A stretch of 64,000 bases of DNA, from NCBI GenBank assembly GCA_949361645.1, contig OX442415.1, positions 29,539,128-29,603,127 of the forward strand, read 5' to 3'. The notes under the pieces are model-generated. The model saw only the letters and a program-made list of their open reading frames with translations, was not told the origin of the DNA and ran no database searches. Every line of letters starts with the position of its first letter. The first letter of the stretch is position 1. This document shows positions 30,472 through 56,742 of the stretch, piece after piece. A program made the translations under genes and the position numbers. Source of the DNA: Spongilla lacustris. Its lineage: Eukaryota > Porifera > Demospongiae > Spongillida > Spongillidae.

Positions 30472-31328
30472 ATTTATGTTTCTGCAATTGTCAACAAATA
30501 AAATTTGTATCCTTATTATTTGGTAGCAATAGAGACCTGCAATATGGGGAAAATTTGCATGCTTCTCTACAACCATCTGAAGGGAATGGGATTTCACATC
30601 ACCATATACAGGGTGTTCCATAATTGTTCAGTTATAAAGTAACAACAAACTGTTAATTAATTTAGACAACAAGGAGATTTGGAATGGTGAAATTATGAGT
30701 TTATTCATATTACAGACCTACATTTAGCAATTTCCAGGAACAATAATAATAGTCATTTTTATAAATGCATCATTGTACCATTCTGATCTGAAATGGCGCT
30801 CCAAGACAGTCAGGTTAGATAAAAAATGAGTGAAAGAAGATACAAAAGTTAATTACAGTATCAGAGCTGCCCACTTGTTAGTACTACACCATTAGCATGC
30901 AGCATCAATTAAGCAGTTACATTGTTGTTGAAAATATTGCTCATTCAAATGCTTAGACTGATACATGCACATATCCTTGCCATCTTCCTGCAATTAATTT
31001 TTTTGCACAAATTAAAGTGGCTATGTTACTCATTTGCCTCTGAAGCTAGGAGACTGCACGCATGGTGCTGTTAACTTTGCTACTGAGTACTGGATCGATG
31101 GTATATGGGATTGTCCATGTTTTAACCATGCAGCTTTTATTTAGGTCAGTATCACTTGTTGCACTCGTTGCATGCAAACCACCCAGTTAATTAAGGTTAA
31201 TCAAGTAGCCGCTTGTGGATAGCAAAGAGCTGCCACAGTGTACTTGTACGTGATCCCTAGCTTGGTAAGGGGTCGAAAACTGGCTTTGTATTCGCTTTTC
31301 CCGCTTTTGCTGAATACCTGAGAATATA
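30472..31328. other. Unassigned intergenic sequence
   Basis: AT-rich, with no gene or repeat recognised. Confidence 0.4.
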
Positions 31329-31797
31329 TATGTATACGTATTTACATGTAACCGCAATGTATTAAACCGCGCGGTTAAACGCCTATACGTATACATGTAT
31401 CGTGGTAACGGCGGTTAAAAACCCTGATTTTAATACTCCATTAGATTTGCCTTTTTCTTTTTAATTTCAGCACATGATTTATACATCTCTATACTATGCT
31501 GGTTTGCGTAAATGCATGCAATATCTACATTGTGCATGTATGAATGTATACGTTTATAGGCGCGGCTTTCTAAATGGTCGTGGTAGACATTGCCTCAGAG
31601 GTACGCATCTGTTATTATCTTCATCCAGTACTAATCCAGTACGACACTCGCATCCAGATTCAAGTGAATATGGGCAGGCGTGAACAGGGCTCTTACACGT
31701 AAATGGTCTGCCAGGGCAGTCGACTTGTTGCTTGTACACTTGGCCCGGGATTAGACAGACTGCATGCATGTGATACATAATGTATATAATAATGTAT
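31329..31797 (-). repeat. Outer inverted repeat, left copy, with TIL-like ORF
   Basis: Its reverse complement is at 56275-56732 with only a few base differences. On the minus strand (31778-31554) it encodes a 74-aa frame containing PVHACPYSLESGCECRTGLV and NNRCVPLRQC. The spacing of Cys is that of a trypsin-inhibitor-like (TIL) domain, usually an extracellular protease-inhibitor module. No signal peptide is visible, so it is probably one exon of a larger gene or a relic of one. Confidence 0.75.
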
Positions 31798-31828
31798 ATA
31801 TAATTATATATATTATAATATAATATAT

Positions 31829-32310
31829 GGGACAGTTTCCGCGAAAATGTCCGACTTTTATAACATTATAATGTTATAAAAATGCTTCTTGTTTGAATCG
31901 CTATATCTTCCGAACGCGAAACGCTATCGACTTCCTATTTTCAACAGTTCATACTACACCATTTCTCTATAATAAATTACATTTTGGAGTCTTGCACTTG
32001 CTCCATGCCAGTATTGCAATGTTCGATACCCGACCGGGTTAAAACCCACCATAACTTTAGGTAGGAGTAATCAAATCGCTTCAAATTCGGTTTGTAGGTA
32101 CAGAGGTCCTATACCTATCGATTTGTTCTGTTCGTTAATTTTTATGTAATCCGTTACGGAGATACAGCTTTACAAAGTAAGCGCACGTTTCCCGCTTGAA
32201 TCGCGCCTTTACATGAGGATGAAACTGCTTCCATACCCAGGAGTACATGAATATTCAACTACATCCTGACAGTGGGCTGGGAGCAATGTTATCACGTGAT
32301 TTATTGCGTA
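31829..32310 (+). repeat. Left TIR of element A
   Basis: About 480 bases, inverted at 47180-47659. It includes TTCTGTTCGTTAATTTTTAT, TCCGTTACGGAGATACAG and CATACTACACCATTTCTCTA blocks, which also occur in elements B and the 817-bp MITE. Confidence 0.9.
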
Positions 32311-32987
32311 TTAAATAGTCTGGGGACCCGAATTGTTTATTTCATTTCGCTTCAAGGTTTATAGCGTAGCGGTGAATGTTGTCGACTTCCCATTTTCACC
32401 ACATCATGTCTCTATGTAAAATTCGAATAGTGCCTCTTAATTAAATCCACTCCCTGTGGAAAATACGTATACAGGAGTTGTTACCTCCAGGGGTTCCAAA
32501 CCCGAGTATCTCCCTGCACTCAGGAGTGTCGGCATTGCCTCAATCGGTATCCGTACATCAACTACTGATACGATATTCGGTTTTAAAGCATATATATCTC
32601 CCGCTAGTTTCGTACCATTTAGCTTGGATGGGGCTGTAATGAATGCACTGTGTGTGTGTTTTTTTTTTAAATTTTTTTATGCACGTATCAAATGCTGTTA
32701 CACATCGAGAGCGTTGCTGAGCATGTAAGACGTTAGACAGATCGACCTACATGGAAAAACATTTATAACAAACGATTAGAACCATTAGATGCTGAACGAA
32801 GCAATTTTCGCTCCGCAGGGTAACGCCGGTTTATGCAGAACCAAAACTTACCATTGTCACTTTCCAAGTAACGTCTTCCGCGAAACATTCAGCCTACGCG
32901 CCTAGTCTTTTGTAATATTTATGTAAAGGGCAATCTCAGGGTAGCCGAATACAGTATTGCTGCATGCGAATTGTTGTAATATTATAG
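32311..32987. other. Subterminal region of element A
   Basis: A degenerate second copy of TIR-like sequence is visible at ~32370-32420 (CTTCCCATTTTCACCACATC). The rest is the probable promoter region of the transposase-like gene; no TATA box could be fixed. Confidence 0.45.
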
Positions 32988-35774
32988 ATGTGCAACCATG
33001 AGAAAGGCGGTACACAAACAATCCTACCGAAGGCCAATTTGCGTACACTTTCCCGTGATTTTCCGCGTGTTAATACTTGCATGGATGATATGGAAGTACT
33101 TGACTCGAGCGACGGAGAGCTCACCTCGCACGGCGACGATGACGTGCAAGAATCGGAGCGGATTGGAGAGGTTGGAGAAAATGAGAACGATGGGGATGGT
33201 GGTGAAAGTGAAACCAGCGTCTGTGGAGGTTACGCTAGGTATGGGTGTGTGGACGATTTTTGCAGTTATGGTGGTCGTAGCTCTGGTTGTAGGGATGTAA
33301 GTGGTGGCGAAGGTGATGATAGTGGTGATGGGGGTAGCAGTGATGGTGACGATAGTGATCGAGGTGATGGAGATAGCAGTGATGGTAGCCAACGTGATTG
33401 GGGTAGCAGTGATGGTGATGAAAGTGATCATGGTGATGGTGGTGATGAGGGGATAAGTAATGTACTCAATGGCTTCCTTACCAGAGGAGGATGCTGCAAA
33501 CACAACTGTCTAATTAAGTCTGCTGACTTGGCCCAAATTAGAGCACATTCCTTGGCTGCATTGGACAAGAAAACCAGAAAGGCTGTTGTTCTTGGAATGC
33601 TGGCTCTAGTTCAAGACAACTCGGGTTTCCATTATCACCTTGACTGGTCTACCCCCATATGCAAGACGGCCTTCTGTGCTGTTGCTGATATTACTTGCCG
33701 TACACTACAGCGCTGGAAGCAGGAGGTGTGCTCTGGCTCAGATATTGTCCCAAATGCCCATGGCAACAGTGGCAGGGCACCCCACAATGCCCTATCTCAA
33801 TTGGATAAGCTGACAGTGGTCAAGTTTATCAAAAACTATGCTGCAGCTCATGCCCTACCTGACCCTGGTCGACTGCAGGGCAAAACCAGGGACTTTTTGC
33901 TGGAGAGTAGTCATACCATGAAGTCCTTGTATCGCGACTACTGCCAGGCTGTACTTGTGGAGGTCGAGTCCAGGAGGGCCTTGCCAGCTACACAACAACC
34001 ATGCCCTTACCGGCTTACGAGCCAATTACGGAGACAGTATACTCTGCTCAATGTGCCTACTCCTGATCCTGTGCCACCTGTCCCTCACATGGTGTCATAT
34101 CCAACATTCATCAGGCTGTGGCGTGAGTACTGTCTGAACATCAAGATTCAGGCTTCACGTAGCGACTTGTGTGACAAATGTGATAAGGCTTTGGTCACCT
34201 TACGGCACAGCCTGTCTGATGCGCAGCGCAAGGCTATCAATGACAGCTACAACCAGCACCTCAGCAAGGCCAAGGAGCTGAGGGAGAATTACAATGCCAA
34301 TATTGAGGTGGCTGAAAAAGTGTGGAGAGGGAAGACACAGAAAGAAAAAGACCAAATCCTAAGCCACTTGAAGTCCAGGGTCCAGCTGTCTCCCCTCACC
34401 TCCTATGCCTACTTGGATCTCTGCATGCAGTATTCCTTTGATTACTGCCAGCAGGTGTCCCTCCCCTACAGCTCCCAACAGAGGGGAACCTTTTACTTCA
34501 GGACAGCTCGCAAGGTCCATGTTTTTGGAGTGTGCTGTGAGCCATTGTGTCGTCAGGTGTTCTTCCTGATAGACGAGGCAGAGCATGTGGGCAAGGGGGC
34601 CGTGGTGGTGGTCAGCCTGGTGCATGCCTTTTTCCACCTGCATGGACTGGGAGAGAGGAATGTAACCCTACAGGCAGACAACTGTACTGGGCAGAACAAA
34701 AACACCACCATGCTGTGGTACATGGCCTGGAGGGTGATAACTGGTCTGCACGACAGGATTCAGCTGAACTTCATGCTAACTGGGCATACCAAGTTTCGGC
34801 CAGACTCCTATTTTGGGCTCTTCAAGAAGCACTACCAACGACAGGATCACATAGACGACATGGCAGACCTTGTCAAATGTGTATGCAAAAGTGGCCAGGA
34901 TGTTGAATGCGTGCCACAGCTATACCAGAACTGGCTATTTTATGATTGGAACGTCTTCTTGGGCCAGTGGTTTGAGCCTCTGAGTGCCTTTGGGCGCTCC
35001 CATACATTTGAATTTGACAGGGAGCACCCCGGTGTAATGGAGATGAGGGCCATGCCATCAGACACTAATCCCACCAAGGTCAACATGCTCAGGACTGGTG
35101 TGAAAGTGGAAGACATCCGGAATGCCTTTCAGCACCAATTATTGCCACCTGTTATAAAGCCAAAAGGGTTGTCCCTCCAGCGGTCGCAGTACCTGTTTGA
35201 AAAAGTGAGGGAGTACGTCCATGACCCAACCAAGAGGGACAATGTCTGTCCGAGGCCCCAGGGGATCACTGAGGCCAGCTCTGCTGGTGGCACCTCTCTG
35301 CAGTCAGGAGACAGTGAGCTGCCAGGATCTTCAGCTACTATCCCTAACACTCCCACTGATGGGGAGGTCCATGTCCTCATGCCTGAGAATTCAGGTGCCG
35401 GCAATGGTGGTTCTGGGTCTCTGAAGAGGAAACGTAGGACCAGGTCTGAGCTCATCTATGCATTCAAGTGTTCAGTATGTGGCAATGAGTATGCCAGCTA
35501 CAATGCCCTGTCCCTGCACAGGAAGAGAAACCACACAATGCCTCCTGTCACAGGTGATGGATCAGGTGGTGGCACAAGTGGTGTCACAGGTGATGCACTG
35601 CCAGTGGCTGTTGACAGCTCCCATGATGAAGGAGAAGCTAGCCAGGTTCGACCTAAGCGCAAACGCAGGCAATTAACAGAAGCTGAACGAAAGTTCTGCT
35701 GCACGGAGTGTGGCCTAAAGTATGGAAGCAATGCTGCACTGTGCACTCACAGAAAGAAGAACCATAGCTTGTGA
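32988..35774 (+). CDS. 928-aa transposase-like protein with C-terminal C2H2 zinc fingers
   Basis: One uninterrupted intron-less frame. ATG 32988 is the first in frame; ATG 33081 (MDDMEVLDSSDGE) is an alternative start at residue 32. Residues ~38-155 are a low-complexity Asp/Gly/Ser region. The core shows YSFDYCQQVSLPY (D485), VTLQADNCTGQNKN (D564) and GHTKFRPDSYFGLFKK (D606), the RNase H-like pattern of a transposase family widespread in invertebrates, with a CDKCD motif ahead of it. I assign these Asp residues as catalytic by inference. Residues ~826-849 and ~903-926 are two C2H2 fingers (CSVCGNEYASYNALSLH and CTECGLKYGSNAALCTH types), probably for binding the TIRs. It is intact and lies 678 bases inside the left TIR end. 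The superfamily was not determined. Confidence 0.8.
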   Translation: MCNHEKGGTQTILPKANLRTLSRDFPRVNTCMDDMEVLDSSDGELTSHGDDDVQESERIGEVGENENDGDGGESETSVCGGYARYGCVDDFCSYGGRSSGCRDVSGGEGDDSGDGGSSDGDDSDRGDGDSSDGSQRDWGSSDGDESDHGDGGDEGISNVLNGFLTRGGCCKHNCLIKSADLAQIRAHSLAALDKKTRKAVVLGMLALVQDNSGFHYHLDWSTPICKTAFCAVADITCRTLQRWKQEVCSGSDIVPNAHGNSGRAPHNALSQLDKLTVVKFIKNYAAAHALPDPGRLQGKTRDFLLESSHTMKSLYRDYCQAVLVEVESRRALPATQQPCPYRLTSQLRRQYTLLNVPTPDPVPPVPHMVSYPTFIRLWREYCLNIKIQASRSDLCDKCDKALVTLRHSLSDAQRKAINDSYNQHLSKAKELRENYNANIEVAEKVWRGKTQKEKDQILSHLKSRVQLSPLTSYAYLDLCMQYSFDYCQQVSLPYSSQQRGTFYFRTARKVHVFGVCCEPLCRQVFFLIDEAEHVGKGAVVVVSLVHAFFHLHGLGERNVTLQADNCTGQNKNTTMLWYMAWRVITGLHDRIQLNFMLTGHTKFRPDSYFGLFKKHYQRQDHIDDMADLVKCVCKSGQDVECVPQLYQNWLFYDWNVFLGQWFEPLSAFGRSHTFEFDREHPGVMEMRAMPSDTNPTKVNMLRTGVKVEDIRNAFQHQLLPPVIKPKGLSLQRSQYLFEKVREYVHDPTKRDNVCPRPQGITEASSAGGTSLQSGDSELPGSSATIPNTPTDGEVHVLMPENSGAGNGGSGSLKRKRRTRSELIYAFKCSVCGNEYASYNALSLHRKRNHTMPPVTGDGSGGGTSGVTGDALPVAVDSSHDEGEASQVRPKRKRRQLTEAERKFCCTECGLKYGSNAALCTHRKKNHSL

Positions 35775-36310
35775 GGATGATGAAGGCTGGTCCTCAACAC
35801 AGAGAGTATGTATTGCTAGCTGCTAGTATTTTGCGTGCCATGTGTACCTTTGGCGAACCCGTCTAGGTGTTGTGAGGTGCTTTGCTGACACCACACATGC
35901 ATGTGCTTTAGAGTGCTGTGGGGTGTATTTCATGTGTACCGTAGGTGACTCTGTTGTGTTTGATTTGACTGCAAAAATAGTTTTTTCATAAAACAGTTCC
36001 TATTAAAACTTGCCACATAGGCATGTGGCATTTTAAATCTACAACTAGGTGTCACCGTTCATCTGCCATTATGTGTACAGTGTATGTAGTGGTCCAATTT
36101 GGATCTTAAGGTTAATTGTCCTCAGTATCTGCTTGAAAATACCCACGAGCATTCCTGTACACTTATTGGTACGTGTATGTGTATAAGCCAAAAATTTAAT
36201 AGCACTTCTCTCTATTGTCACTTTGTCATACTGCCTTCCACAATCAGATTGGCTACAGGCCAACATTGTAGTTTTTTTCTTTATAAGTCTCGTCTCTTCG
36301 GAAGCCTGCA

Positions 36311-36415
36311 TGTTAGAGAAAGTGCGGATACTCCACCAAGAGGGACATGTCAGGTGGTCACTGAGGCCAGTTCTGCTGATGGCACCTCTCTACATTCTGC
36401 AGGCAGCCCATAACC
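36311..36415 (+). repeat. Diverged partial duplicate of the transposase 3' coding region
   Basis: It repeats sequence of 35200-35325: GAGAAAGTGCGG, CCACCAAGAGGGACA and TCACTGAGGCCAG, then GGCACCTCTCT. It has diverged and is not open as a gene. Confidence 0.75.
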
Positions 36416-36956
36416 TTCAGTAAACCCCATTTTCATTTGAGTTGCATGCAACATATTGTTGGCTTTGACTTGAGATCACAATGGGACAAGCTGAATTCAC
36501 TTTTAATCCCATGCAAGCACTCAATGGGTATTATACAGAAAACGTGAACTTTATGACCAGTAATGAGAAGTACGAGTTTGCTTTTAATAACCTTCCTTAC
36601 AAGACTGCAACTGGGCATGGATGTTGCACTGAATAAAGCAAAAACGTTCTGTACATAATTAAATAGCATACAATGCTTCTCTTGCCATAATGCCCTCCTT
36701 TGGCCTCCTCCTCCTCCCAGGCACGACACAGTCTGTCAGTGTGCTGGCTGCTTTGCATGAGTAGTGGGAGGGGCTGTCTTTTTCGTGGCGATCTGCATTC
36801 ATCAGTTTTTCCAAGGAGCATGGCGTTTTGGCACCTGAATGGTCACAACGTTGCACAATACTGGTAGTTTGGAGCTTTGTAGACTATATGATGCAATATT
36901 CAAATGGTGAATCCGCACTCCCGACCAATCAAAAAAAAAGAGCGCGAAAAAGAGAA

Positions 36957-38954
36957 ATGGCACGTCATATGGTAAAAGACACTATTGTTGAAATGCAAAA
37001 GAACCTGCAGTGTCCTATATGGTAACTGATGCCGATTACTCGTGGATTATTTTGATTTTGTATATTAAATTCATGTAGCTTGGAACTGCTCGTGGACCCG
37101 TACACAACGCGGTGTGGCCATGCGTTTTGCAGGTTTTGCAGGCATGCATGATGCGTAATCAGTGAGATATCGTCTATAATTGCAGAGTCTGCATATGCAC
37201 CGTTATATCCAGCTGCAAGCATGCAATGTGCCCTCTCTGCAAGCAGGCCGTGACGAAGCGGTATATATTATTATAAGGCCTAACCGTCAAATGGGCCAAG
37301 GGTATTTATGTTTAGGCCCATTTCAGTAGCCTCAACGAGAGTTCCAGGCTGGGTGAAATTGCAGAAGCGTTTAAGGCATTAGAATCAGCAGTGAAGAAAG
37401 ACATGAAGGAAGACGTTACTAGTACCTGTAAGCTTATCACTCCCTACGTGTATCACCCTAATTTTTGCCCACCACAGGTACACCAATTACCTGTGCATAC
37501 GACAGTCATGAAGCCACATGCATAGGCACACCAAGTATTAATCCAGTAGGCCACTATTTTAGGGATATGTGTGCTCCCCTCACCCCAATGGACCAACCCC
37601 CCCATGGACCCATCCCCACCCCCACCCTCATCCCCACTTTGTGTATGTGTGACTTTAATGTTATGAGGAGGCCACATGCACACTCACACTGTCTGTACAT
37701 GATTGTGGAATAAACTTTACATGGCAATGGAAAGGATGTTACTGTCGTCGAGGAGACACAATTTCATCTGAATAGCAAGTTACCGCAGGATGATCTACAT
37801 GTACTACAGCAGGAGGAGCAGATGTCTATGTCACAAGCCACACAGATACAAGCATATGCTTCACCACATCTATCTCTTGTTGGTTCAAGACTTACAGGGG
37901 CTCAACTGGTGAGCTAGCCATGTCATGTGATGTAATGTGTGCTTTATGTCATATGACCAGCCTGTTAATGCACACTTTTTCTGTTGATAGCAACAAGCAA
38001 AAATATTTGCTAAGAAGCATGGTGGTCGCATCGCTACTTGCTTCAATGGCAGGACCACCCACATTGTCGTTAATGTAGGTAAGTTGCCTGATATCGCACT
38101 GTTGAGCCATTTTAGGGTAATCACATGTAAGTGTGAACATTGCACATAACTTTGCTGTGATGCCTACAACATTATTGTATACCACTCAGATGAAAATGGC
38201 AGGTGCACTCGAACATTCAAGTACCTTCAGGGTATAGCGTCAGGTCGCTGGATCGTAGATTATCAGTGTGAGTCTTTCTCCCTTTGATGTATACGCCTTG
38301 TGAAATGTGTGTGCCTTGCTGTGTAGGGATCAAACATAGTCTAGAGAATGAGCGACAAGTGGCCCTTCCTGTGGTATGCTTGTATCATTTGTAATTTTTT
38401 TATTTTTGGTTTCTGGTCAGAACATGTACGAGGTGAGAGGGGACCACGTTTACAGTGTAAATGCACCTCAAAAGGCACGATTGAGTCTTGCTGGTGGGGT
38501 ATGTGGTGGAATAACTAGCTCATGTATTCACATGTATTATTTGATTTAGGAAGCAGGCCTGTTTGCGTGCATGAATTTTTTTGTTATGGAAGGGTGTAAT
38601 CCACTTTCGAAGGAGCAAATAACGAACCTCTTAGTATTGGCAGGAGGAAAAATAGTGTCAAAACCACAAGTATGCTAAAAACAACTGAGTAATAATACAA
38701 CTAACCATTAATAAATTTATTGCAATCTCAGTCATGTTTGGTAGTATGTGACACAACATCCCCATCAGAAGGGCTTGTGGATGCCACTGTTGTTGTTAGC
38801 AGTTGGGTGATGGATTCACTCTCAAATTATAAGTAAGTACTTTGCTCCGTCACATTTGACCTATGTTATGTGATCTCAGTTGTGTGTTTGTACATGTAAC
38901 GTGCTTCTTAACAGGTTGCTTTTGGTCAGCAAATATGGTGTGACTTCTGTTTAG
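36957..38954 (+). CDS. BRCA1-like: BRCA1-like RING + tandem BRCT protein, 12 exons, 356 aa
   Basis: Exons that join in frame with GT-AG sites: 36957-37021, 37079-37132, 37186-37260, 37327-37477, 37735-37908, 37991-38078, 38190-38267, 38327-38373, 38421-38498, 38550-38669, 38732-38832, 38915-38954. The product has a RING with all eight zinc ligands (C19, C22, C34, H36, C39, C42, C55, C58; CPICLELL, RCGHAFC, CPLCKQAVTKRSL). This matches BRCA1 rather than BARD1, and the helix after the RING also resembles BRCA1. Two BRCT repeats fill residues ~163-345. SRLTGAQL and RTFKYLQGIASGRWIV keep the Ser, Arg and Lys equivalent to human S1655, R1699 and K1702 of the phosphopeptide pocket; G1656 is replaced by Arg. 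Known BRCA1 pairs with BARD1 as an E3 ligase in homologous recombination. This protein is a fifth of the human length and lacks the large middle. The exon 5 acceptor (GGAAAG) is weak; CCGCAG at 37777 is an in-frame alternative. Confidence 0.85.
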
Positions 38955-39870
38955 TGAGACCACCAGCATTATAGTTTTGGAAACCCTATATGTTCAGAAC
39001 CGCCTCTTACTACTCTGCTAGTGTGCTGTATGTGTATGATGTGATTGATATTGATATTATCACTGGTGAAATGACTGGACTGGTCTAATTGTACTGTAGT
39101 TGCAGTGGTGATGTTCTCCATCTGCTGCTATGACATGGGTCTGGGAACGAAAGTGGTGCTACAACCACATTGACCCATCCCACACAATCACAAGTAACAT
39201 ACTATGATCTTCCAGGACACAACTATTATTTCAACACTCCCTAGGGCAACCAGCAATACCTGGGATCATGTCACAGCTGCATTTGCAGAAAGGTGCATGC
39301 AGCATAACATATATATTTGCAAATCAGCCCATACACCATGTAGGCATGTGTGGATTTTTACCCCTCCACAGATACATGTGCATGACATTTAGGTTTTATC
39401 ATGGTTGCATGCATGGGGCAAAAGTCTTGCCACAAAACAAAATTCATGACATTGGGCCTTTGTTACTAGTACAAACAAACAAAATTAAGATACCATCAGA
39501 GGTGTGGAGGGTTGCAGGTGTTGCACACACACAAACACACACACAACACAGCACATGTCTCAGCATATGAAGTGGGAAGCTAAAATCCCATTACAAACAT
39601 TGTTTTGTTCAGATTACACAGTGACAGAAACAAAGAAACACGAGTTCAATGACATCAAGTCTTATGAGCTTGGAGGTGATCCAAGCAATGGCAACATTCT
39701 ACCAACAGGCATCACGAATCACTGCGTCTTCATCCTGTCTAGTTCTTGCAGATCTATGTAGCCATCCTTTCTGAGTGCAGTGTTTTTTTAATTACTAATT
39801 ATTAATGGTAATCAGCAGAAGGGTGTGCTCATTCCACTGCTGTCTGCTGTAGGGACCGCTTCACAGTAGT
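38955..39870. other. Unassigned segment of element A with one possible exon
   Basis: Mostly non-coding. At ~39613 the acceptor TTGTTCAG precedes an open stretch reading DYTVTETKKHEFNDIKSYEL, then GGDPSNGNILPTGITNH, stopping at 39759. It is not recognised and has no clear partner exon. Confidence 0.35.
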
Positions 39871-39899
39871 TGTATACTGCATGTGGTTACTCCTCTGTC

Positions 39900-42800
39900 T
39901 TCTACACAGCTATATGCCATGCTACACAGCTATCAGCCATGCTCCACAGCTATATGCCATACTCCACAGCTATCTGCAATGCTCAACAGCTATCTGCCAT
40001 GCTCCACGGCTATCTGCCATACTCCACAGCTATCTGCCATACTCCACAGCTACCTGCCATGCTACACAGCTATCTGCCATACGAGCACATAGCTATCTGC
40101 CATGCTCCATAGCTATCTGCCATGCTCAACAGCTATCTGCCATACTCCACAAGCATTGATGCTACACTTGCAGCTATCTGCATTGATGCTCCACAGCTAT
40201 CTGCCATACTCCCATAGCTATCTGCCGTACAGTTATCTTCCATGCTCCATAGCTATCTGCCATACGAGCACACAGATATCTGCCATACTCCACAGCTATC
40301 TGCCATGCTCCACAGCTATCTGCCATGCTCCACAGCTATCTGCCCAGCTATCTGCCATGCTCCAAAGCTCGCTGCCATGCTCCACAGCTATCTGCTATAC
40401 TGCACAAGCCGCTATCTGCCATTTGATGTTCCACGGCTATCTGCCATGTTCCACAGCTATCTGCCATGTTCCACAGCTATCTGCCATGCGCCACAGCTAG
40501 CCATGCTCCATAGTTATCTGCCATATGAGCACACAGCTACTGTATCTGCCATGCTCCACAGCTATCTGCCATGCTCCACAGCTATCTGCCATGCTCCACA
40601 GCTATCTGCCATGTTCCAAAGCTATCTGCCATGCGCCACAGCTAGCCATGCTCCATAGTTATCTGCCATATGAGCACACAGCTACTGTATCTACCATGCT
40701 CCACAGCTATCTGCCATGCTCCATAGCTATCTGCCATACAGCTATCTCCCATGCTCCATAGCTATCTGCCATACGAGCACACAGCTGCCATCCACTACAG
40801 TGTATCTGCAATGCTTCACAGCTATCTCCCATGTGCCATAGCTTTCTGCAATTCTCCATAGCTATCTGCCATACAAGCACATTAGCACACAGCTATCTGC
40901 CATACAAGCACATTAGCACACAGCTATTCACAGCTATCTGCCATGCTCCACAGCTATCTGCTATACTCAACAGCTATCTGCTATACTCCACAGCTATCTG
41001 CCATGCTCCATAGCTATCTGCCATGCTCCACAGCTATCTGCCATGCTCCACAGCTATCTGCCATACTCCACAGCTATCTGACATGCTCCATAACTATCTG
41101 CCATGCTCCACAGCTATCTGACATGCTCCACAGCTATCTGCCATCTGCCATGCTCCACAGCTAACTGCCATACAAGCACACAGCTATCTGCCATACAAGC
41201 ACACAGCTATCTGTCATGCTCCACGGCTATCTGCCATGCTCAACAGCTATCTGCCATACTCTACAAGCAGCTATCTGCCATTGATGCTACACATGTAGCA
41301 ATCTGCCATGCTCCACAGCTATCTGCCATGCTCCACAGCTATCTGCCATGTTCCACAGCTATCTGCCATGCGCCACAGATAGCCATGCTCCATAGTTATC
41401 TGCCATACGAGCACACAGCTACTGTATCTGCCATGCTCCACAGCTATCGGCCATGCTCCATAGCTATCTGCCATACAGCTATCTCCCATGCTCCATAGCT
41501 ATCTGCCATACGAGCACACAGCTATCTGCCATCCACAACTACAGTGTATCTGCAATGCTTCACAGCTATCTCCCATGTGCCATAGCTATCTGCAATTCTC
41601 CATAGCTATCTGCCATACAATCACATTAGCACACAGCTATCTGCCATACTTCACAGCTATCTGCCATGCTCAACAGCTATCTGCCATGCTTCACAGCTAT
41701 CTCCCATATGCCATAGCTATCTGCCATACTCCATAGCTATCTGCCGTACCAGCACACAGCTATCTGCAATACTCCATAGCTATCTGCCATACAAGCACAC
41801 AGCTATCTGCCATACTTCACAGCTATGTGCCATGCTCCATAGCTATCTGCCATGATCCACCGCTATCTGCCATGCTCTGCCATATGAGCACACAGCTATC
41901 TGCCATGCTCCATAGCTATCTGCCATGCTCCATAGCTATCTGCCATGCTCCACAGCTATCTGCCATGCTCCACAGCTATTTGCCATGCTCCACAGCTATC
42001 TGCCATGCTCCACAGCTATCTGCCATGCTCAACAGCTATCTGCCATACTCTACAAGCAGCTATCTGCCATTGATGTTACACATGCAGCAATCTGCCATGC
42101 TCCACAGCTATCTGCCATGTTCCACAGCTATCTGCCATGCGCCACAGCTAGCCATGCTCCATAGTTATCTGCCATATGAGCACACAGCTACTGTATCTGC
42201 CATGCTCCACAGCTATCGGCCATGCTCCATAGCTATCTGCCATACAGCTATCTCCCATGCTCCATAGCTATCTGCCATACAGCTATCTCCCATGCTCCAT
42301 AGCAATCTGCCATACGAACACACAGCTATCTGCTATCCACAACTACAGTGTATCTGCAATGCTTCACAGCTATCTCCCATGTGCCATAGCTATCTGCAAT
42401 TCTCCATAGCTATCTGCCATACAAGCACATTAGCACACAGCTATCTGCCATACTTCACAGCTATCTGCCATGCTCAACAGCTATCTGCCATGCTTCACAG
42501 CTATCTCCCATGTGCCATAGCTATCTGCCATACTCCATAGCTATCTGCCATACCAGCACACAGCTATCTGCAATACTCCATAGCTATCTGCCATACAAGC
42601 ACACAGCTATCTGCCATACTTCACAGCTATGTGCCATGCTCCATAGCTATCTGCCATGTTCCATAGCTATCTGCCATGCTCTGCCATACGAGCACACAGC
42701 TATCTGCCATGCTCCACAGCAATCTGCCATGCTCCACAGCTATCTGCCATGCTCCACAGCTACTTCACAGCTATCTGCCATGCTCCACTGCAGCTATCTG

Positions 42801-45800
42801 CCATGCTCCACAGCTATCTGCCATACTTCACAGCTATCTGCCATGCTCCACAGCTATCTGCCTGCTACACAGCTATCTGCCATACTCCACAGCTATCTGT
42901 GATCCTCCATAGCTATCTGCCATGCTCCACAGCAATCTGCCATGCTCCACAGCTATCTGCCATGCTCCACAGCTACTTCACAGCTATCTGCCATGCTCCA
43001 CTGCAGCTATCTGCCATGCTCCACAGCTATCTGCCATACTTCACAGCTATCTGCCATGCTCCACAGCTATCTGCCTGCTACACAGCTATCTGCCATACTC
43101 CACAGCTATCTGTGATCCTCCATAGCTATCTGCCATACAGCTATCTGCCATGCTCCATAGCTATCTACCGTGCTCCATAGCTATCTGCCATACGAGCACA
43201 CAGCTATCTGCCATGCTCCACAGCTATCTGCCTGCTACACAGCTATCTGCCATACTGCACAGCTATCTGTGATCCTCCATAGCTATCTGCCATACAGCTA
43301 TCTGCCATGCTCCACAGCTATCTGCCATGTTCCACAGCTAGCCATGCTCCATAGTTATCTGCCATATGAGCACATGCGCACAGCTACTGTATCTGCCATG
43401 CTCCACAGCTATCGGCCATGCTCCATAGCTATCTGCCATACAGCTATCTCCCATGCTCCATAGCTATCTGCCATACAGCTATCTCCCATGCTCCATAGCT
43501 ATCTGCCATACGAACACACAGCTATCTGCCATCCACAACTACAGTGTATCTGCAATGCTTCACAGCTATCTCCCATGTGCCATAGCTATCTGCAATTCTC
43601 CATAGCTATCTGCCGTAAAAGCACATCAGCACACAGCTATCTGCCATACTTCACAGCTATCTGCCATGCTCAACAGCTATCTGCCATGCTTCACAGCTAT
43701 CTCCCATGTGCCATAGCTATCTGCCATACTCCATAGCTATCTGCCATACCAGCACACAGCTATCTGCAATACTCCATAGCTATCTGCCATACAAGCACAC
43801 AGCTATCTGCCATACTTCACAGCTATGTGCCATGCTCCATAGCTATCTGCCATGATCCACCGCTATCTGCCATGCTCTGCCATACGAGCACACAGCTATC
43901 TGCCATGCTCCACAGCGATCTGCCATGCTCCACAGCTATCTGCCATGCTCCACAGCTACTTCACAGCTATCTGCCATGCTCCACTGCAGCTATCTGCCAT
44001 GCTCCACAGCTATCTACCATACTTCACAGCTATCTGCCCTGCTCCACAGCTATCCGCCTGCTACACAGCTATCTGCCCTACTCCACAGCTATCTGTGATC
44101 CTCCATAGCTATCTGCCATACAGCTATCTGCCATGTTCCATAGCTATCTGCCATACGAGCACACAGCTATCTGCCATGATCCACAGCTACAGTGTATCTG
44201 CCATACTCCACAGCTATCTGCCATGCTCCACAGCTATCTGACATGCTCCACAGCTATCTGCCATGCTCCACAGCTATCTGCCATGCTCCACAGCTATCTG
44301 CCATACAAGCACACAGCTATCTGCCATACAAGCACACAGCTATTTGCCATACAAGCACACAGCTATCTGCCATGCTCCACGGCTATCTGCCATGCTCAAC
44401 AGCTATCTGCCATACTCTACAAGCAGCTATCTGCCATTGATGCTACACATGTAGCAATCTGCCATGCTCCACAGCTATCTGCCATGCTCCACAGCTATCT
44501 GCCATGTTCCACAGCTATCTGCCATGCGCCACAGATAGCCATGCTCCATAGTTATCTGCCATATGAGCACACAGCTACTGTATCTGCCATGCTCCACAGC
44601 TATCTACCGTGCTCCATAGCTATCTGCCATACGAGCACACAGCTATCTGCCATGATCCACAGCTACAGTGTATCTGCCATACTCCACAGCTATCTGCCAT
44701 GCTCCACAGCTATCTGACATGCTCCACAGCTATCTGCCATGCTCCACAGCTATCTGCCATGCTCCACAGCTATCTGCCATACAAGCACACAGCTATCTGC
44801 CATACAAGCACACAGCTATCTGCCATACAAGCACACAGCTATTTGCCATACAAGCACACAGCTATCTGCCATGCTCCACGGCTATCTGCCATGCTCAACA
44901 GCTATCTGCCATACTCTACAAGCAGCTATCTGCCATTGATGCTACACATGCAGCAATCTGCCATGCTCCACAGCTATCTTACATGCTCCACAGCTATCTG
45001 CCATGCTCCACAGCTATCTGCCATGTTCCACAGCTATCTGCCATGCGCCACAGCTAGCCATGCTCCATAGTTATCTGCCATACGAGCACACAGCTACTGT
45101 ATCTGCCATGCTCCACAGCTATCTGCCATGCTCAATAGCTATCTGCCATGCTTCACAGCTATCTCCCATGTGCCATAGCTATCTGCCATACTCCATAGCT
45201 ATCTGCCATACCAGCGCACAGCTATCTGCAATACTCCATAGCTATCTGCCATACAAGCACACAGCTATCTGCCATACTTCACAGCTATGTGCCATGCTCC
45301 ATAGCTATCTGCCATGTTCCACCGCTATCTGCCATGCTCTGCCATACGAGCACACAGCTATCTGCCATGCTCCACAGCTATCTGCCATGCTCCACAGCTA
45401 TCTGCCATGCTCCACAGCTATCTGCCATGCTCCACAGCTATTGCCATGCTCCACAGCTATCTGACATGCTCCACAGCTATCTGCCATGCTCCACAGCTAC
45501 TTCACAGCTATCTGCCATGCTCCACTGCAGCTATCTGCCATGCTCCACAGCTATCTGCCATACTTCACAGCTATCTGCCATGCTCCACAGCTATCTGCCT
45601 GCTACACAGCTATCTGCCCTACTCCACAGCTATCTGTGATCCTCCATAGCTATCGGCCATACAGCTATCTGCCATGCTCCACAGCTATCTACCGTGCTCC
45701 ATAGCTATCTGCCATACGAGCACACAGCTATCTGCCATGATCCACAGCTACAGTGTATCTGCCATACTCCACAGCTATCTGCCATGCTCCACAGCTATCT

Positions 45801-46955
45801 GACATGCTCCACAGCTATCTGCCATGCTCCACATCTATCTGCCATTCTCCATAGCTATCTGTGATACGAGCACACAGCTATCTGCCATACTTCACAGCTA
45901 TCTGCCATGCTCCAAGCTATCTGCCATGCTTCACAGCTATCTGCCATGCTCAACAGCTATCTGCTATACTCCACAGCTATTTGCCATACGAGCACATAGC
46001 TATCTGCCATGCTCCACGGCTATCTGCCATGTTCCACAGCTATCTGCCATGTTCCACAGCTATCTGCCATACTCCACAGCTAACTGCCATGATCCACAGC
46101 TATCTGCCATGATCCACAGCTATCTGCCATGATCCACAGCTATCTGCCATGCTCCACAGCTATCTGACATGCTCCACAGCTATCTGCCATGCTCCACATC
46201 TATCTGCCATTCTCCATAGCTATCTGTGATACGAGCACACAGCTATCTGCCATACTTCACAGCTATCTGCCATGCTCCAAGCTATCTGCCATGCTTCACA
46301 GCTATCTGCCATGCTCAACAGCTATCTGCTATACTCCACAGCTATTTGCCATACGAGCACATAGCTATCTGCCATGCTCCACGGCTATCTGCCATGTTCC
46401 ACAGCTATCTGCCATGTTCCACAGCTATCTGCCATACTCCACAGCTAACTGCCATGATCCACAGCTAACTGCCATGATCCACAGCTATCTGCCATGATCC
46501 ACAGCTATCTGCCATGATCCACAGCTATATGCCATACGAGCACACAGCTATCTGCCATGCTCCACAGCTATCTGCCATGCTTCACAGCTATCTGCCATGC
46601 TCCACAGCTATATGCCATGCTCCACAGCTATACGCAATGCTCCACAGCTATATGCCATACGAGCACACAGCTATCTGCCATGCTCCATAGCTATCTGCCA
46701 TGCTCCACAGCTATCTGCCATGCTCCACAGCTATCTGCCATGCGTCACAGCTATCTGCCATGCTCCACAGCTATATGCCATGCTCCACAGCTATATGCCA
46801 TACGAGCACACAGCTATCTGCCATGCTCCATAGCTATCTGCCATACGAGCACACAGCTATCTGCCATGCTTTACAGCTATCCACAGCTATCTGCCATGCT
46901 CCACAGCTGTCTGCACCACCCCACAGCTATCTGCCATGCTCCACATGTTCACTGA
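39900..46955. repeat. 7-kb satellite with a 20-bp unit inside element A
   Basis: The basic unit is CATGCTCCACAGCTATCTGC with variants (CTCCATAG, ATACTCCACAG, ATACGAGCACACAG, ATACAAGCACACAG, CTTCACAG). Variant units recur in the same order in blocks several hundred bases long, for example the ACAGCTACTGTATCTGCCAT block at 40530, 40680, 41415, 42185, 43380, 44573 and 45092. That indicates higher-order repeats. No stop occurs in any plus-strand frame of the unit, and since 20 is not a multiple of three all frames read the same cyclic 20-residue peptide. I treat the long open frames as artefacts. Confidence 0.95.
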
Positions 46956-47179
46956 CACTGCGGGCAGTTTAGCTTACGAAAGAAAACTTCTACAGCTCCC
47001 AATCTCCACCACCCATTCATCCGAGCATTCATCTTAGATATATATCATCGTTTTCGCACTGGGCCGTTCGAAATCGTCCGTGGAATTAAAGAGGCGAGGT
47101 GCACCCGCCAAAAGGTCCGCCTTACAAAAAAGGTCTGGGAACTGTAAATAGCAATTAACTAACCAATTGCTGCATTAAA

Positions 47180-47659
47180 TCACGTGAGTATTCCTCAAAC
47201 TACTGTATGCCCCAGCCCACGGGATCTAGTTGAATATTCATGTGCTCCGGGGTATGGAAGCAGTTTCATCCTCATATAAAGGCGCGATTCGAGCGGGAAA
47301 CATGCGCTTACTTTGAAAAGCTGTATCTCCGTAACGGATTACATAAAAATTAACGAACAGAACGAATCGATAGGTATAGGACCTCTGTACCTACAAACCG
47401 AATTTGAAGCGATTTGATTACTCCTATCTAAAGTTATGGCGGGTTTGAACCCGGTGGGGTATCGAACGTTGCAATACAGGTGTGGAGCAAGTGCAAGACT
47501 TCAAAATGTAATTTGTCATAGAGAAATGGTGTAGTATGAACTGTTGAAAATAGGAAGTCGATAGCGTTCAGCGTTCGGAAGATATAGCGATTCAAACAAG
47601 AAGCATTTTTATTATATTATAGTGTTATAAAAGTCGGACATTTTCGCGGAAACTGTCCC
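47180..47659 (-). repeat. Right TIR of element A
   Basis: Inverted copy of 31829-32310. It begins internally near ATCACGTGAGTATTCC and ends CATTTTCGCGGAAACTGTCCC minus its last base at 47659. Confidence 0.9.
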
Positions 47660-48335
47660 ATATATATATATGGGACAGTTTCCGAGAAAATGATACTTCG
47701 CATATATAAATATAAAGTTATAAAAATGCCTCGCGTTTGAATCGCTATAACTCCCGAACGATAAACGATATTAACTTCCTATTTTCAACACTTCATACTA
47801 CACCATTGCTCTATAGTAAAATACATTTTGGGGCCTTGCACTTGCTCCGTGCCAGTATTGCAACGTTCGATACCCCACCGGGTTCTAACCCACCATAACT
47901 TTAGGTAGGAGTAATCAATTCGCTTCAAATTCGGTTTGTAGGTAGAGAGGTCATATACCTATCGATTTGTTCTGTTCGTTAATTTTTATGTCATCCGTTA
48001 CGGAGATACAGCGGCGCAAAGTTGGTACACGTTTCCCGCTCGAATTGCGCCGTTGTACGTGCGTGAACCGCTTCCATACCAAATTACATGAATATGCAAC
48101 TACTTCCTGTGGGCTGAGACTTGGATAACTTATAGCCACACCTATGTATACTGCGCTAGCTAGCTAGCTGGGTAAGTATTTAATCTATCGCCCCTGTCAC
48201 AGTTGATATTCGTTATTATCTGTGTAGATAAACGATATGCATAGCGACGTCCACTGAAGACAAGCTCGTAAGAGGTTCAATCGGCGGACGAGTTCGAGCC
48301 GGTACGGTTACGACGAGATATTCAAGATACTTTCG

Positions 48336-51300
48336 ATGAGGATGGGGAGATCGAGAACGGTAGTGACGGCGGTCATACCACTGACGATGGTGGTTGTAGG
48401 AAGTAAACAGCCGCTAAATCACCACCGGCCCCGCCCCCCACATATGGGCCATTGCAAGTCCAGACAGCAGCCCTGCAAAACCAACAGATGCAATGCAGAG
48501 CCACCAACCCGCACTACCTATGGAACCACCCGCCCATATCAGACCCTACACAGGAGCTACCAATTAACCAATGGGGTCAGCCTCCACAGTACAAGTAGAG
48601 ATACTTATACTAACCCTCTCCCTGCAAATGGAGTTGGCAGCCCTCACAATTTCAGGGCAGCCATGAACTACATGTACATGTACCAAGGGAAGTCACACAT
48701 GCCCCCTCCCAACACTACCAGTGGAACTACATGTATTAGCCCTCACTGCAAATGGCCTTACATGTACATGTAAGCAGAACCCCATTGGTCCAGCCCCCTC
48801 CCCTCCCCACCCCCACTATTGATTATTCTCTGCAAGTTCAAGGGACCATTGGCGCCATCCCCACACAGCAAAACCACCAGTCCCCATCACTACAGCCTTG
48901 CAAACTTTCAAAATAATACCTCCCCACCAGCTCTCTTACGGATGTGGTTACCAGACCCTGCACTGCCAGTAGGGGAGCCCTCACATGCAGGGGTCAATAG
49001 ATGCCAGTGGAGATGCCGCCCTCACTCTATAAGTAGTCCCCATAAAGTACTGTACATACACCCGCCCCTCTCCAAACAGTGAAACCATAAGCCTACACTG
49101 CAAGTGCTCCACACACTGAGACCAGCCATCTGGACCAATGGGGTCAGCTCCCTCACTGCAAGTGGACAGTATCATTGGACCATTAATGCTAGTGAACTTA
49201 ATAGCCACACGATACAAGTGAACTAACATTTAATACCTCCCGCACACTGCAAGTACTGGAGCCACCATCTCTCTTACAGATGGGGTTACCAGACCCTGCA
49301 CTGCCAGCAGGGGTGCCCACACAAGCTGGGGTCAATACAATGTACATGTAGGTATGATGCCAATGGAGATGCCAGCCATCACACTACAAGCGATTAAGCA
49401 GTCCCCAAATTTCAGGGGAAGCCATGAACTACATATGCACTGAACGTACACCCGCCCTTTCACTGCAAGTGCCCCACAAACTGGGACCAGCCCCCCACGG
49501 CCCTCCTGCCCACTACTAGTCCTTCACTGCAAGTAGAGTCAACGGCTCAGGGACAAATGGGGTCAGCTCCCTCACTGCAAACAGACGGTAACATTGTAAC
49601 TATTAATGCAAGTGAACTTAAAAGCCCACACTGCATTCCAGTTAGCACCATTGGAGCCATATTCCAGATGGAGTTATCAGACTGCCAGCAGGAAAGCCAC
49701 CAGCTGCTAAACTCCCCGGGGTCATTGGGGGGTCCCACAATAATGCATACTGGTGGATGGAGTCACACTGCAAGTGGAAATGGCACCCCGCACAATTTTA
49801 GGGAGCCACGAACTGGAGCCACACATGCCCCCACTATCTATGGAACCATTTCACCCTCACTTAGCAGCCCCCACACACTACAAGTACAGTCCATACCAGT
49901 GACCATTCACTGCAAGTTCAAGGGGCCAATGGTCACACATCAAAACCACCATCCCCCATTGATCACTGCAAGTGAACTCAACAGCCGCACGATGCAAGTG
50001 AATTTCCATTAAATGTAAATGCCTCCACACTCCACACTGCAAGTAGTGGAGCCACCAGCTCTGTTACAGATGGGGTTACCAGACCCTGCATTCGATCAAT
50101 GCCAGCAGGGGTGCCCACACAAGCTGGGGTCAGTAGGTATATGATGCCAGTGGAGATGCCAACCCTCACACTACAACCCATGAACTACATGTACTGTACG
50201 TACACCTGCCCATCTCAAAACACTACCAATGGAACCATTAGGCCTCCTGCCCTGCACTACCTGCATGTCCTTCACTGCACGTTGAGTCAACATACGGCCC
50301 AGGGACCAATGGCGTCAGCTCCCTCACTGCAAGCGGACAGTATCATTGGAATCATTAATGCAAGTGAACTTAATGGCCCCACACTGCAGGTCCGGTTAGC
50401 ACCAGCGGTTCTTGGTCTGTCAGCAAAGGAGCCACCAGCTGCTAAACACCCCAGGGTCATTGGGGCCCCCAGAATAATCATGCTGGTGGAAACTCACAAC
50501 AGTGGAATTGGAATTGGTAACCCCCACAATATTAGGGGAACCATGAACTGGAGCCCCCCGCTATCCATGGAACCATTAGCCCTCACTTAGCAGGAGTACC
50601 TCCCACTACATGTACCTATCCTTCACTGCATGTTTCATCAGTCAAGATTACCAGCCATATCACTACAAGTGCACCATACCCGTGAACATTTACCGCAGGT
50701 TCAAGGGGCCAATGGGACCACTGGAGCCATTCTCACACATTAGAACCACCATCCCCCATAACTGCAAGTGAACTTAACAGCCGCACAAGACAAGTGAACT
50801 TACATTTAATGCCTACACACTGCTAATAGTAGAGCCACCAGCTCTCTCACAGATGGGGTTACCAGACCTGCACTGCCCACATAAGCTGGGGTCAATATGT
50901 ATATGCCAGTGGAGATGCCAGCCATCGCACTACAAGTAGTCCCCAAATTTCAGGGAAAGCCATGAACTACATGCACTGAACATACACCCGCCCCTCTCCA
51001 AACACTACCATTTGAACCATTAGTCCTCACTGCAACTACCCTACACACTGGGACCCGCCCCCACAGCCCTCCTGCCCCTTCACTGCATGTTGAGTTATTG
51101 GCCCAGGGGTCAGCTCCCTCACTACAAGCGGACAGACGCATTATTGCAAGTGAACTTAATAGCCCCATACAACAAGTCCAGTTAGCACCTGTCCAACGAG
51201 GGAGCCACCAGCTGCTAAAACCCTCTGCAGGGTCGTTGGGGGCCCCCCACAATAATGCATGCTGGTGGAGACTCCAGCTCTCACACGGCAATAGGAATTC

Positions 51301-51950
51301 GGCACCCCACACAATATTAGGGGAGCCATCAACTGGAGTCACACATGCCCATGGAACCATTAGCTCTCACTTAGCAGTCCCCACATACGGGGCTAGCCCC
51401 CACGGCCCTATCTCTCACTACCTATCCTTTACTGCAAGTTGTATCCGAGATCCAGGAGTGAACGTGCAATGCCATCCCTCACTCACTAGCCCTCTCACTG
51501 CAAACACACAATACCAGTGGAACCAGACTCACCCAGCACCCACCCCCAACAGCCCTCTTACGTATGGAGTAATCAGACTGCCAGCAGGGGAGCCACCAGC
51601 TGCCATATTACCAGTCCTCACAAAACTAGACCCCATCATGAGGAGTGGAACCACACATGCAATGGAGCCATTAGCTCTCACTGCATGGGGACTTACATGG
51701 TGTAGGCCCCAAACACTGGGGCCAGCCACAATGGCCCCCTATCCACTTAACCCCACACAGTACAACCACCAGCTCCTCACTGCAAATGAAACCACCAGAC
51801 CCACTACCTGTGAAACCATTAACTCCCTACCTGTGAAACTGGTCATTAACCCCCACACTACAAGAGAACTTACACTGTCAGGAGAACCATCAACTACTAG
51901 TGGAGCTACCAGCCCGCATTGGACAAATGGGAACACCATGCACCACTGAA
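48336..51950 (+). repeat. Diverged internal repeats in the left arm of element B
   Basis: Related blocks occur at ~48925-49030, 49262-49395, 50050-50175 and 50828-50940. Each carries GCCACCAGCTCTCTTACAG or a variant, GGGGTTACCAGACC, AAGCTGGGGTCAAT and GTGGAGATGCC. The short words CACTGCAAGT and CACTACAAGT are scattered through the whole arm. No protein domain is recognised, and the frames are mostly Thr/Pro/Ser-rich shadows of the repeat. Confidence 0.65.
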
Positions 51951-52768
51951 GCAGCCTCCGTTTGTAGAGTGTACATGTGTACGTTTTGAACACATTTTGT
52001 GTTGTAGATCTGAACTAAATGTTTGTGCATGTACCGAGGCATGTACAGAGTTATTTTATCTGGGGTGGAAGTGAAGCCCATGCTGTTAGTGGTGAATATA
52101 GTTACCAGCCCTATCGGTACTGATTGCGGGTGGTCTGCACCCGTGGTTGGTTTATATAGACAAGCAGAAGGCTTTTTGAAAAGAAAAAAGCCTACTGGGA
52201 ACTGTGTAGTGTTGAGATACATGTACAAGTTGCAAAACTTGTAAGTGCCACTTAGAATGTCACATAAATTGCATGCGCAGTCACAGCTATAATTTGGCAC
52301 GGTGAAGACATTGGAATTCATGACCACCAACTTCACTTGTGCGGTCATGAATTCTGATGTCTTCACCGTGACACACATCCAAAATGGCACTTACATGTTT
52401 TGCTAAGTGTACCTCAACAATGTAAAACACTACATGTAGTTCCCAGCTGTAGGGGGTTTTATTCTTATTTTTTATCTTCCAAAAAGCTCTCTGCTTGTGT
52501 ATATAAACCAACCACGGGTGCAGACCACCCGCAATCAGTACCGATAGGGCTGGTAAATATATTCACCACTAACAGCATGGGCTTCACTTCCACCCCAGAT
52601 AAAATAACTCTGTACATGCCTCTGTACATGCACAAACATTTAGTTCAGATCTACAACACAAAATGTGTTCAAAACGTATACATGTACACTCTACAAACGG
52701 AGGCTGCTTCAGTGGTGCATGGTGTTCCCATTTGTCCAATGCGGGCTGGTAGCTCCACTAGTAGTTGA
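51890..52768. repeat. Centre of the palindrome with mirrored open frames
   Basis: Minus strand 52390-51890 and plus strand 52400-52768 each contain the same ~95-codon open stretch (KPTTGADHPQSVPIGLV start). Of four base differences I could read in this stretch, most change an amino acid, so there is no sign of protein-level selection. I regard it as non-coding. Confidence 0.6.
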
Positions 52769-55700: not shown

Positions 55701-56274
55701 TATCTATACACAGAAGATAACGAATATCAACTGTAACAGGGACGATAAATTAAATACTTACCCACTCCAGCTAGCTAGCTAGCGCAGTATATATAGGTGT
55801 GGCTATAAGTTATCCAAGTCTCAGCCCACAGGAAGTATTTGCATATTCATGAATTTGGTATGGAAGCAGTTCACGCACGTACAACGGCGCGATTCGAGCG
55901 GGAAACTTGTACCAACTTTGCGCCGCTGTATCTCCGCAACGGATGACATAAAAATTAACGAACAGAACAAATCGATAGGTATATGACCTCTCTACCTACA
56001 AACCGAATTTGAAGCGAATTGATTACTCCTACCTAAAGTTATGGTGGGTTTGAACCCGCTGGGGTATCGAACGTTGCAATACTGGCACGGAGCATATGCA
56101 AGGCCCCAAAATGTATTTTATTATAGAGCAATGGTGTAGTATGATGTGTTGAAAATAGAAAGTTAATATCATGTATTGTTCTGGAGTTATAGCGATTCAA
56201 ACGCGAGGCATTTTTATAACTTTATATTTATATATGCGAAGTATCATTTTCTCGGAAACTGTCCCATATATATA

Positions 56275-56732
56275 TATACATTATGTATCACATGCATGCA
56301 GTCTGTCTAATCCCGGGCCAAGTGTACAAGCAACAAGTCGACTGCCCTGGCAGACCATTTACGTGTAAGAGCCCTGTTCACGCCTGCCCATATTCACTTG
56401 AATCTGGATGCGAGTGTCGTACTGGATTAGTACTGGATGAAGATAATAACAGATGCGTACCTCTGAGGCAATGTCTACCACGACCATTTAGAAAGCCGCG
56501 CCTATAAACGTATACATTCATACATGCACAATGTAGATATTGCATGCATTTACGCAAACCAGCATAGTATAGAGATGCATAAATCATGTGCTGAAATTAA
56601 AAAGAAAAAGGCAAATCTAATGGAGTATTAAAATCAGGGTTTTTAACCGCCGTTACCACTATACATGTATACGTATAGGCGTTTAACCGCGCGGTTTAAT
56701 ACATTGCGGTTACATGTAAATACGTATACATA
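56275..56732 (+). repeat. Outer inverted repeat, right copy, with TIL-like ORF
   Basis: Reverse complement of 31329-31797. Plus-strand frame 56283-56507 encodes the same 74 residues as the left copy, including CPGRPFTCKSPVHACPYSL and GCECRTGLVLDEDNNRC. The identical peptide means the two copies separated recently or are kept alike by conversion. Confidence 0.75.

Positions 56733-56742
<10 letters not shown>

Follow-up and report, generated by a model that had tools for sequence, protein, structure and literature searches.

A transposon of the freshwater sponge Spongilla lacustris carries a captured, shortened BRCA1 gene that might serve it as a repair-choice factor

Transposons rely on host repair to complete each move, and a DNA transposase is linked with break repair in Metnase/SETMAR, in which a host protein is fused to a domesticated transposase. 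Pack-MULEs and gene-capturing Helitrons take up intron-bearing host genomic DNA, and most of them are non-autonomous carriers of gene fragments. On the repair side, BRCA1-delta11 is a natural isoform of BRCA1. Captured gene fragments in transposons are known already, and so are accessory DNA enzymes in autonomous elements: the available part of PMC9587614 describes Kolobok lineages with a nuclease (KolobokE), a RecQ helicase (KolobokH) and a His-Me nuclease (KolobokP).

The sequence analysed here is a 64,000-nucleotide stretch of Spongilla lacustris DNA (the window), in which a TIR transposon, element A, carries a BRCA1-like gene, referred to below as mini-BRCA1 or the cargo. Similar to Pack-MULEs and Helitrons, element A contains captured host DNA with introns; unlike them, it has its own transposase and a full reading frame in the captured gene. 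Classification as a Pack-MULE-like capture element, a class we take to be non-autonomous, was rejected, since the 928-aa transposase ORF is open in five of the seven near-identical copies described below, the other two having early stops. Metnase/SETMAR and element A both tie a transposase to repair, while in element A it is the transposon that holds the repair-type gene; the Metnase/SETMAR transposase domain (3k9k) appeared as one row in a separate search. With the Kolobok lineages, as presented in the available part of PMC9587614, element A shares the combination of a TIR element, a DDE transposase and a DNA-processing protein. However, those lineages encode DNA-processing enzymes and duplicate TTAA, whereas element A has a RING-BRCT gene with 12 introns and duplicates ATAT or ATAA, and it was therefore not assigned to the Kolobok superfamily as defined there. 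The cargo also resembles forms of the BRCA1-delta11 type, used as BRCA1-delta11:BARD1 in PMC10639053, in joining a RING to BRCTs across a reduced centre, but it is shorter still, its presumed coiled coil is gone and it is a separate mobile gene. No transposon carrying BRCA1 was found in a search of titles and abstract openings whose scope excluded bioRxiv and most subscription papers; in the literature so covered, no description was found of an autonomous element whose second gene is an intact BRCA1 derivative with introns.

Mini-BRCA1 lies at 36957-38954 of the window on the plus strand, where the preliminary description had placed it with 12 exons and 356 aa; the place stands, and the model now has 13 exons (65, 54, 75, 101, 68, 174, 88, 78, 47, 78, 120, 101 and 40 nt) separated by 12 GT-AG introns, for a protein of 362 aa (Table 1). 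Pfam detected zf-C3HC4 (E 9.3e-9), BRCT (E 8.6e-17) and BRCT_2 (E 7.9e-11) in the protein, and the top two of its 119 PDB sequence matches were the BRCA1 BRCT (1l0b, E 3.8e-19) and the BRCA1 RING (1jm7, E 8.4e-19), the latter alignment extending over TKRSL and both flanking helices. These matches agree with the earlier claims of a complete RING and of a BRCA1-type TKRSL segment after it; all eight zinc ligands of the C3HC4 RING are present, as they are in a more distant copy with 92% identity. As for the tandem BRCTs, the Ser of the first BRCT and the R..K of TRTFKYL, which we take to be phosphopeptide-pocket residues, had been reported as kept and indeed are, while the pocket Gly after the BRCT1 Ser has become Arg.

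Table 1. Features of element A and of its BRCA1-like gene, in window coordinates.
Feature	Position	Strand	Remarks
Element A, whole TIR transposon, 15,831 bp	31829..47659	+	ends GGGACAGTTTCCGCG / CGCGGAAACTGTCCC; other copies share boundaries
Left target duplication ATAT, 4 bp	31825..31828	.	
Right target duplication ATAT, 4 bp	47660..47663	.	
Left TIR	31829..32266 (inner end approximate)	+	
Right TIR	47222..47659 (inner end approximate)	-	
Transposase ORF, 928 aa	32988..35774	+	DUF7869 catalytic core, C-terminal C2H2 fingers; invariant D485, D564, D606
Mini-BRCA1 exon 1	36957..37021	+	N-terminal helix, first RING cysteines
Mini-BRCA1 exon 2	37079..37132	+	RING; length as in host exon 2
Mini-BRCA1 exon 3	37186..37260	+	RING, CPLC, TKRSL start; length as in host exon 3
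Mini-BRCA1 exon 4	37327..37427	+	remainder of TKRSL, post-RING helix
Mini-BRCA1 exon 5	37478..37545	+	
Mini-BRCA1 exon 6	37735..37908	+	linker in place of missing host central exons, joined to BRCT1 start
Mini-BRCA1 exon 7	37991..38078	+	BRCT1; length as in host
Mini-BRCA1 exon 8	38190..38267	+	BRCT1, TRTFKYL pocket residues; length as in host
Mini-BRCA1 exon 9	38327..38373	+	length as in host
Mini-BRCA1 exon 10	38421..38498	+	length as in host
Mini-BRCA1 exon 11	38550..38669	+	BRCT2; length as in host
Mini-BRCA1 exon 12	38732..38832	+	BRCT2; length as in host
Mini-BRCA1 exon 13 and stop	38915..38954	+	length as in host
Captured 3' sequence	38955..39011	+	similarity to host BRCA1 locus past the stop (block 38897-39011, 65%)
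Minisatellite, 20-bp unit, within element A	39905..46945	+	

The TIRs of element A bracket the gene as described before, although they measure about 438-457 bp (94-95% identical) rather than ~480 bp. The intact transposase-like gene noted beside mini-BRCA1 is also found, on the same strand. Its product has an RNase H-fold with catalytic acids and is of DDE type; Pfam places it in DUF7869, a literature search under that name gave no paper, and Foldseek alone gave no match below E 0.001. Judged from these sequence features, element A appears to be an autonomous-type TIR transposon with putative excision and insertion activity, copy similarity alone hinting at recent movement. As side observations, transposase residue 598 is Thr in the window and Pro in the five other copies readable there and in most family members, and otherwise invariant residues are altered in two copies (R508S on contig C12, N570S on C10). 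Judged by eye, a short stretch at 36340-36410 of the window looks similar to transposase gene sequence near 35258, in the 3' part of that gene, as though a fragment of it had been copied into the space between both genes, and the 7-kb minisatellite has a GC skew of about -0.4.

A search of the genome (248.6 Mb, 51 contigs) with the mini-BRCA1 DNA (14 of 14 candidates scored) returned 18 rows. Eight are full-length places, seven of them at 100% after rounding, the window included, and one at 92%; five rows belong to one degraded copy on C25, three to the host gene on C4 and two to fragments (C25 and C24). For comparison, sequence was read for the seven full-length copies outside the window, for the degraded one, for the two fragments and for the host locus. 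All eight full-length copies and the degraded one are bounded by the TIRs, which gives nine loci on six contigs; the preliminary description had proposed looking for further GGGACAG-TIR elements with the gene at the same place, and they exist. The 4-bp flanks match in eight of the nine copies, being ATAT in seven and ATAA on both sides of the copy on C6, which indicates duplicated target DNA and not element ends; the 92% copy, on C12, has ACAT and GACA. The 1-kb flanks differ from copy to copy, sharing no more than neighbouring TIR-type elements and some short matches. In the copy on C4 (9.47 Mb), 102 bp of one flank match the other flank in inverted orientation (96%). Element length ranges from 11.8 to 16.6 kb, and pairwise differences among the seven near-identical copies amount to 0.012-0.323% over an 8-kb core, suggesting that these copies moved recently.

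Transposase matches of at least 90% occur at nine loci, which are the same nine that carry mini-BRCA1 and the only ones among the matches listed (40 of 335 candidates scored). Mini-BRCA1 is thus carried by nine of nine located copies of the subfamily, with the frame intact in eight and broken in one. A sister transposase family is represented, among the same 40 of 335 candidates scored, by at least 30 rows at 73%, all of equal score and span, and one at 74%; it has spread over C1, C2, C3 and other contigs. None of the BRCT matches (24 of 24 candidates) or BRCT-part matches (113 of 159 candidates scored) comes within 300 kb of these rows. The element A TIRs are also found on foldback elements of roughly 820 bp at 91-93%, among the matches listed (40 of 2893 candidates scored), as expected for a transposon family with non-autonomous derivatives.

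A separate full-length BRCA1, for which a search had been suggested, was found on C4 (13264751-13270068), with 15 predicted exons, about 1303 aa and one uncertain junction. This host gene is single: when its BRCT part was used as query (16 of 16 candidates), it matched itself once at 100% and otherwise element copies and short pieces. The 20 kb around the locus contained no exact copy of the TIR string and no match to element A as long as a TIR. The cargo shares with the host gene and with animal BRCA1 the RING, TKRSL, the flanking helices and the tandem BRCT, as well as exon structure and 3' sequence; in contrast to them, it is multicopy, lies inside a transposon and has neither the central exons nor the presumed coiled coil. 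Exon lengths are identical in nine of 13 cases (54, 75, 88, 78, 47, 78, 120, 101 and 40), and blocks over exons and introns are 70-76% identical, the last block (65%) running past the stop to 39011. Upstream, the match is limited to some 26 bp at the start codon. The shared exons, introns and 3' sequence show that the gene was captured as genomic DNA and that its centre was lost; a retrocopy was rejected on the grounds that the relationship to the host locus extends to the introns and the 3' sequence.

Cargo exon 6 occupies the place of host exons 6-8. Homology of the linker to host central motifs (VTVVEETQF versus VTVIQETPF) was considered and is suggestive at most, as shuffles reach such scores in 59 of 200 cases for the host and 24 of 200 for P0041, a BRCA1 from another source. 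The segment EIEELEALL, presumably the PALB2 site within the coiled coil, is present in the host BRCA1 and in P0041 and absent from the cargo. Over the domains, identity is 74.0% (233/315) between cargo and host, 66.7% (210/315) between cargo and P0041, and 73.8% (236/320) between host and P0041. We infer that the source of the cargo was the gene of this host rather than that of a close relative. The other BRCT matches in the genome presumably represent, by their translated pieces, genes like RFC1 (L001), FCP1 (L006) and TOPBP1 (L003 and L005); a host BARD1 was not identified among them (24 of 24 candidates).

The nearest named relatives of both the transposase and mini-BRCA1 are from Ephydatia muelleri, a member, like the whole of its genus, of the freshwater sponge family Spongillidae; the sequences of the window differ from those proteins. 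The E. muelleri gene models are truncated or merged predictions. In P0001-P0005 a transposase N-terminus is joined to BRCT exons, and in P0008 (EMCRGX_G014570) the transposase fingers run into cargo exons 4, 5 and 6. In the BRCT part (P0001 and P0004), 71 of 81 residues equal the cargo versus 64 of 81 for the host; 17 sites agree with the cargo, six with the host and three are E. muelleri's own. When 111 columns were resampled 1000 times, every replicate gave the four-sequence split of cargo and E. muelleri against the two host BRCA1s, and its FastTree support was 0.994. As well, the linker left by the central loss is common to both (25 of 33 identical), and the Gly to Arg change of the pocket recurs in P0008. 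The simplest reading of these sequences would be one capture before the species split, and transfer of the element between sponge species is a possible alternative.

Because of the TIR-bounded copies with the gene, the separate BRCA1 on C4 and the same gene order in the E. muelleri models, mini-BRCA1 is almost certainly transposon cargo and not a host gene. As to its function, we consider the chance about even that mini-BRCA1 joins host BARD1 and biases the repair of transposase breaks. The RING, both helices, TKRSL and the BRCT pocket are kept and the presumed coiled coil is gone, from which we infer a BARD1 partner that would push resection. A mini-BRCA1 protein would be made from the cargo; its RING and flanking helices would bind BARD1 and yield an active ubiquitin ligase on chromatin, and its BRCTs would recruit repair partners in their phosphorylated form. 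Where the element had left a gap, the repair would then lean toward resection of the ends and use of the sister chromatid as template, and templated refilling of the donor site would raise copy number. The PALB2-dependent step, as we understand the role of PALB2, would be left to the host BRCA1, the cargo being without the coiled-coil segment. The direction of the effect, toward resection and templated refilling, is proposed more tentatively and falls somewhat short of even. The available part of PMC10639053 describes the BRCA1-BARD1 RING pair as a ligase that ubiquitylates H2A and a BRCA1-delta11:BARD1 complex as binding nucleosomes. The whole sequence of events, in which an autonomous transposon captured BRCA1, reduced it to the RING and BRCT ends, retained it while two sponge species diverged and used it as a repair-choice factor, has in our judgement roughly equal chances of being right or wrong. 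If it is true, a selfish element encodes a tumour-suppressor-type protein that controls its own DNA breaks. The cargo is a natural minimal BRCA1, RING and BRCT with no centre, outside the host gene, and an element with its own BRCA1 derivative makes the influence of transposons on repair directly testable.

The strongest rival to this repair-steering role, by our ranking, is that mini-BRCA1 acts as a dominant-negative decoy, which is unlikely yet deserves serious weight. It would occupy BARD1 and the phosphopeptide partners and block BRCA1-driven recombination or the checkpoint, so that end joining closes the excision site fast. RING and BRCT are retained while the central region and the host EIEELEALL are missing, and the apparent lack of the coiled coil fits an inhibitor equally; the pocket change to Arg that cargo and P0008 have in common also points this way. 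However, PALB2 binding by the host segment is our assumption, and the sequences fit either direction of the effect.

It is rather improbable that the cargo is a neutral passenger, copied along after capture and of no use to the element. The window copy and the 92% copy differ at 43 of 1086 aligned exon bases and at 46 of 864 intron bases, and gap openings number 11 in introns and none in exons besides the stop triplet, which was omitted from the alignment. The dN/dS between copies that had been proposed as a check is 0.30 (NG86) to 0.38 (YN00, ML) for the whole gene and 0.18-0.22 for the BRCT part. Where a neutral simulation (20,000 replicates) expects 30.6+-2.8 amino-acid changes, the two copies show 21 (P=0.0012); by the same simulation, their lack of stop codons was not telling (P=0.21). 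Replacement changes in the whole gene are below the neutral level, but neither branch alone, polarised by the host, is significant (5 N:5 S, P=0.11; 7 N:7 S, P=0.06; 19 of the 43 differences unplaced), as a passenger would have it. The RING part alone also fits a passenger, its dN/dS being about 0.9 to 1.9 (NG86 0.031/0.034, YN00 0.033/0.027, ML 0.035/0.019), so that dN was about equal to or above dS by three methods for these two cargo versions. Moreover, the seven young copies are so alike (0.01-0.32% apart) that their intact frames say little on selection. Against a passenger, the gene is retained in every located copy and in the E. muelleri models, amino-acid changes are below the neutral simulation, gaps are confined to introns, and the 92% copy keeps its 13-exon frame open while its transposase is frameshifted (tblastn pieces). 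In this copy the BRCA1-like stop codon has changed, and with TGA next the protein is one codon longer.

A chromatin role, in which the cargo RING ligase loosens host silencing of the element or damps a germ-cell damage checkpoint, is considerably less probable than a passenger, though consistent with the recent spread of the subfamily and with the action of a BRCA1-type RING on histone H2A in the available part of PMC10639053. Finally, an ordinary host BRCA1 lying by chance between transposon ends, or an assembly artefact, can be dismissed: the preliminary description would have reverted to a host gene had this been the only BRCA1, at a conserved place and with no second TIR-bounded copy, whereas there are nine TIR-bounded loci on six contigs, which differ in their flanks and of which eight have matching 4-bp duplications, and a separate, single, full-length host BRCA1.

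Some further features were observed around element A and its relatives. Element A and its neighbour lie between the arms of an outer 465-nt inverted repeat (31324-31788 / 56273-56737, 99%), which looks as though they had both entered the TA-rich centre of a host palindrome. This repeat was rejected as the true element ends, because in the other copies with the BRCA1-like gene the element stops at the GGGACAG-type TIR; in a genome search (13 of 13 candidates), the pair occurs at 99-100% only at this locus, all others being at 72-83%. The neighbour, a second element of the same TIR type at 47672-56265 directly after element A, has no ORF above 330 aa, and its interior is one long palindrome with arms 94-99% complementary. 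Elsewhere, two 9.9-kb segments on different contigs (L045, C25:4153000-4162999; L046, C24:2669500-2679499) are 99.97% identical and contain element-A-like transposon pieces, among them a portion of cargo exons 4-5 (76%), and possibly represent another mobile or duplicated unit.
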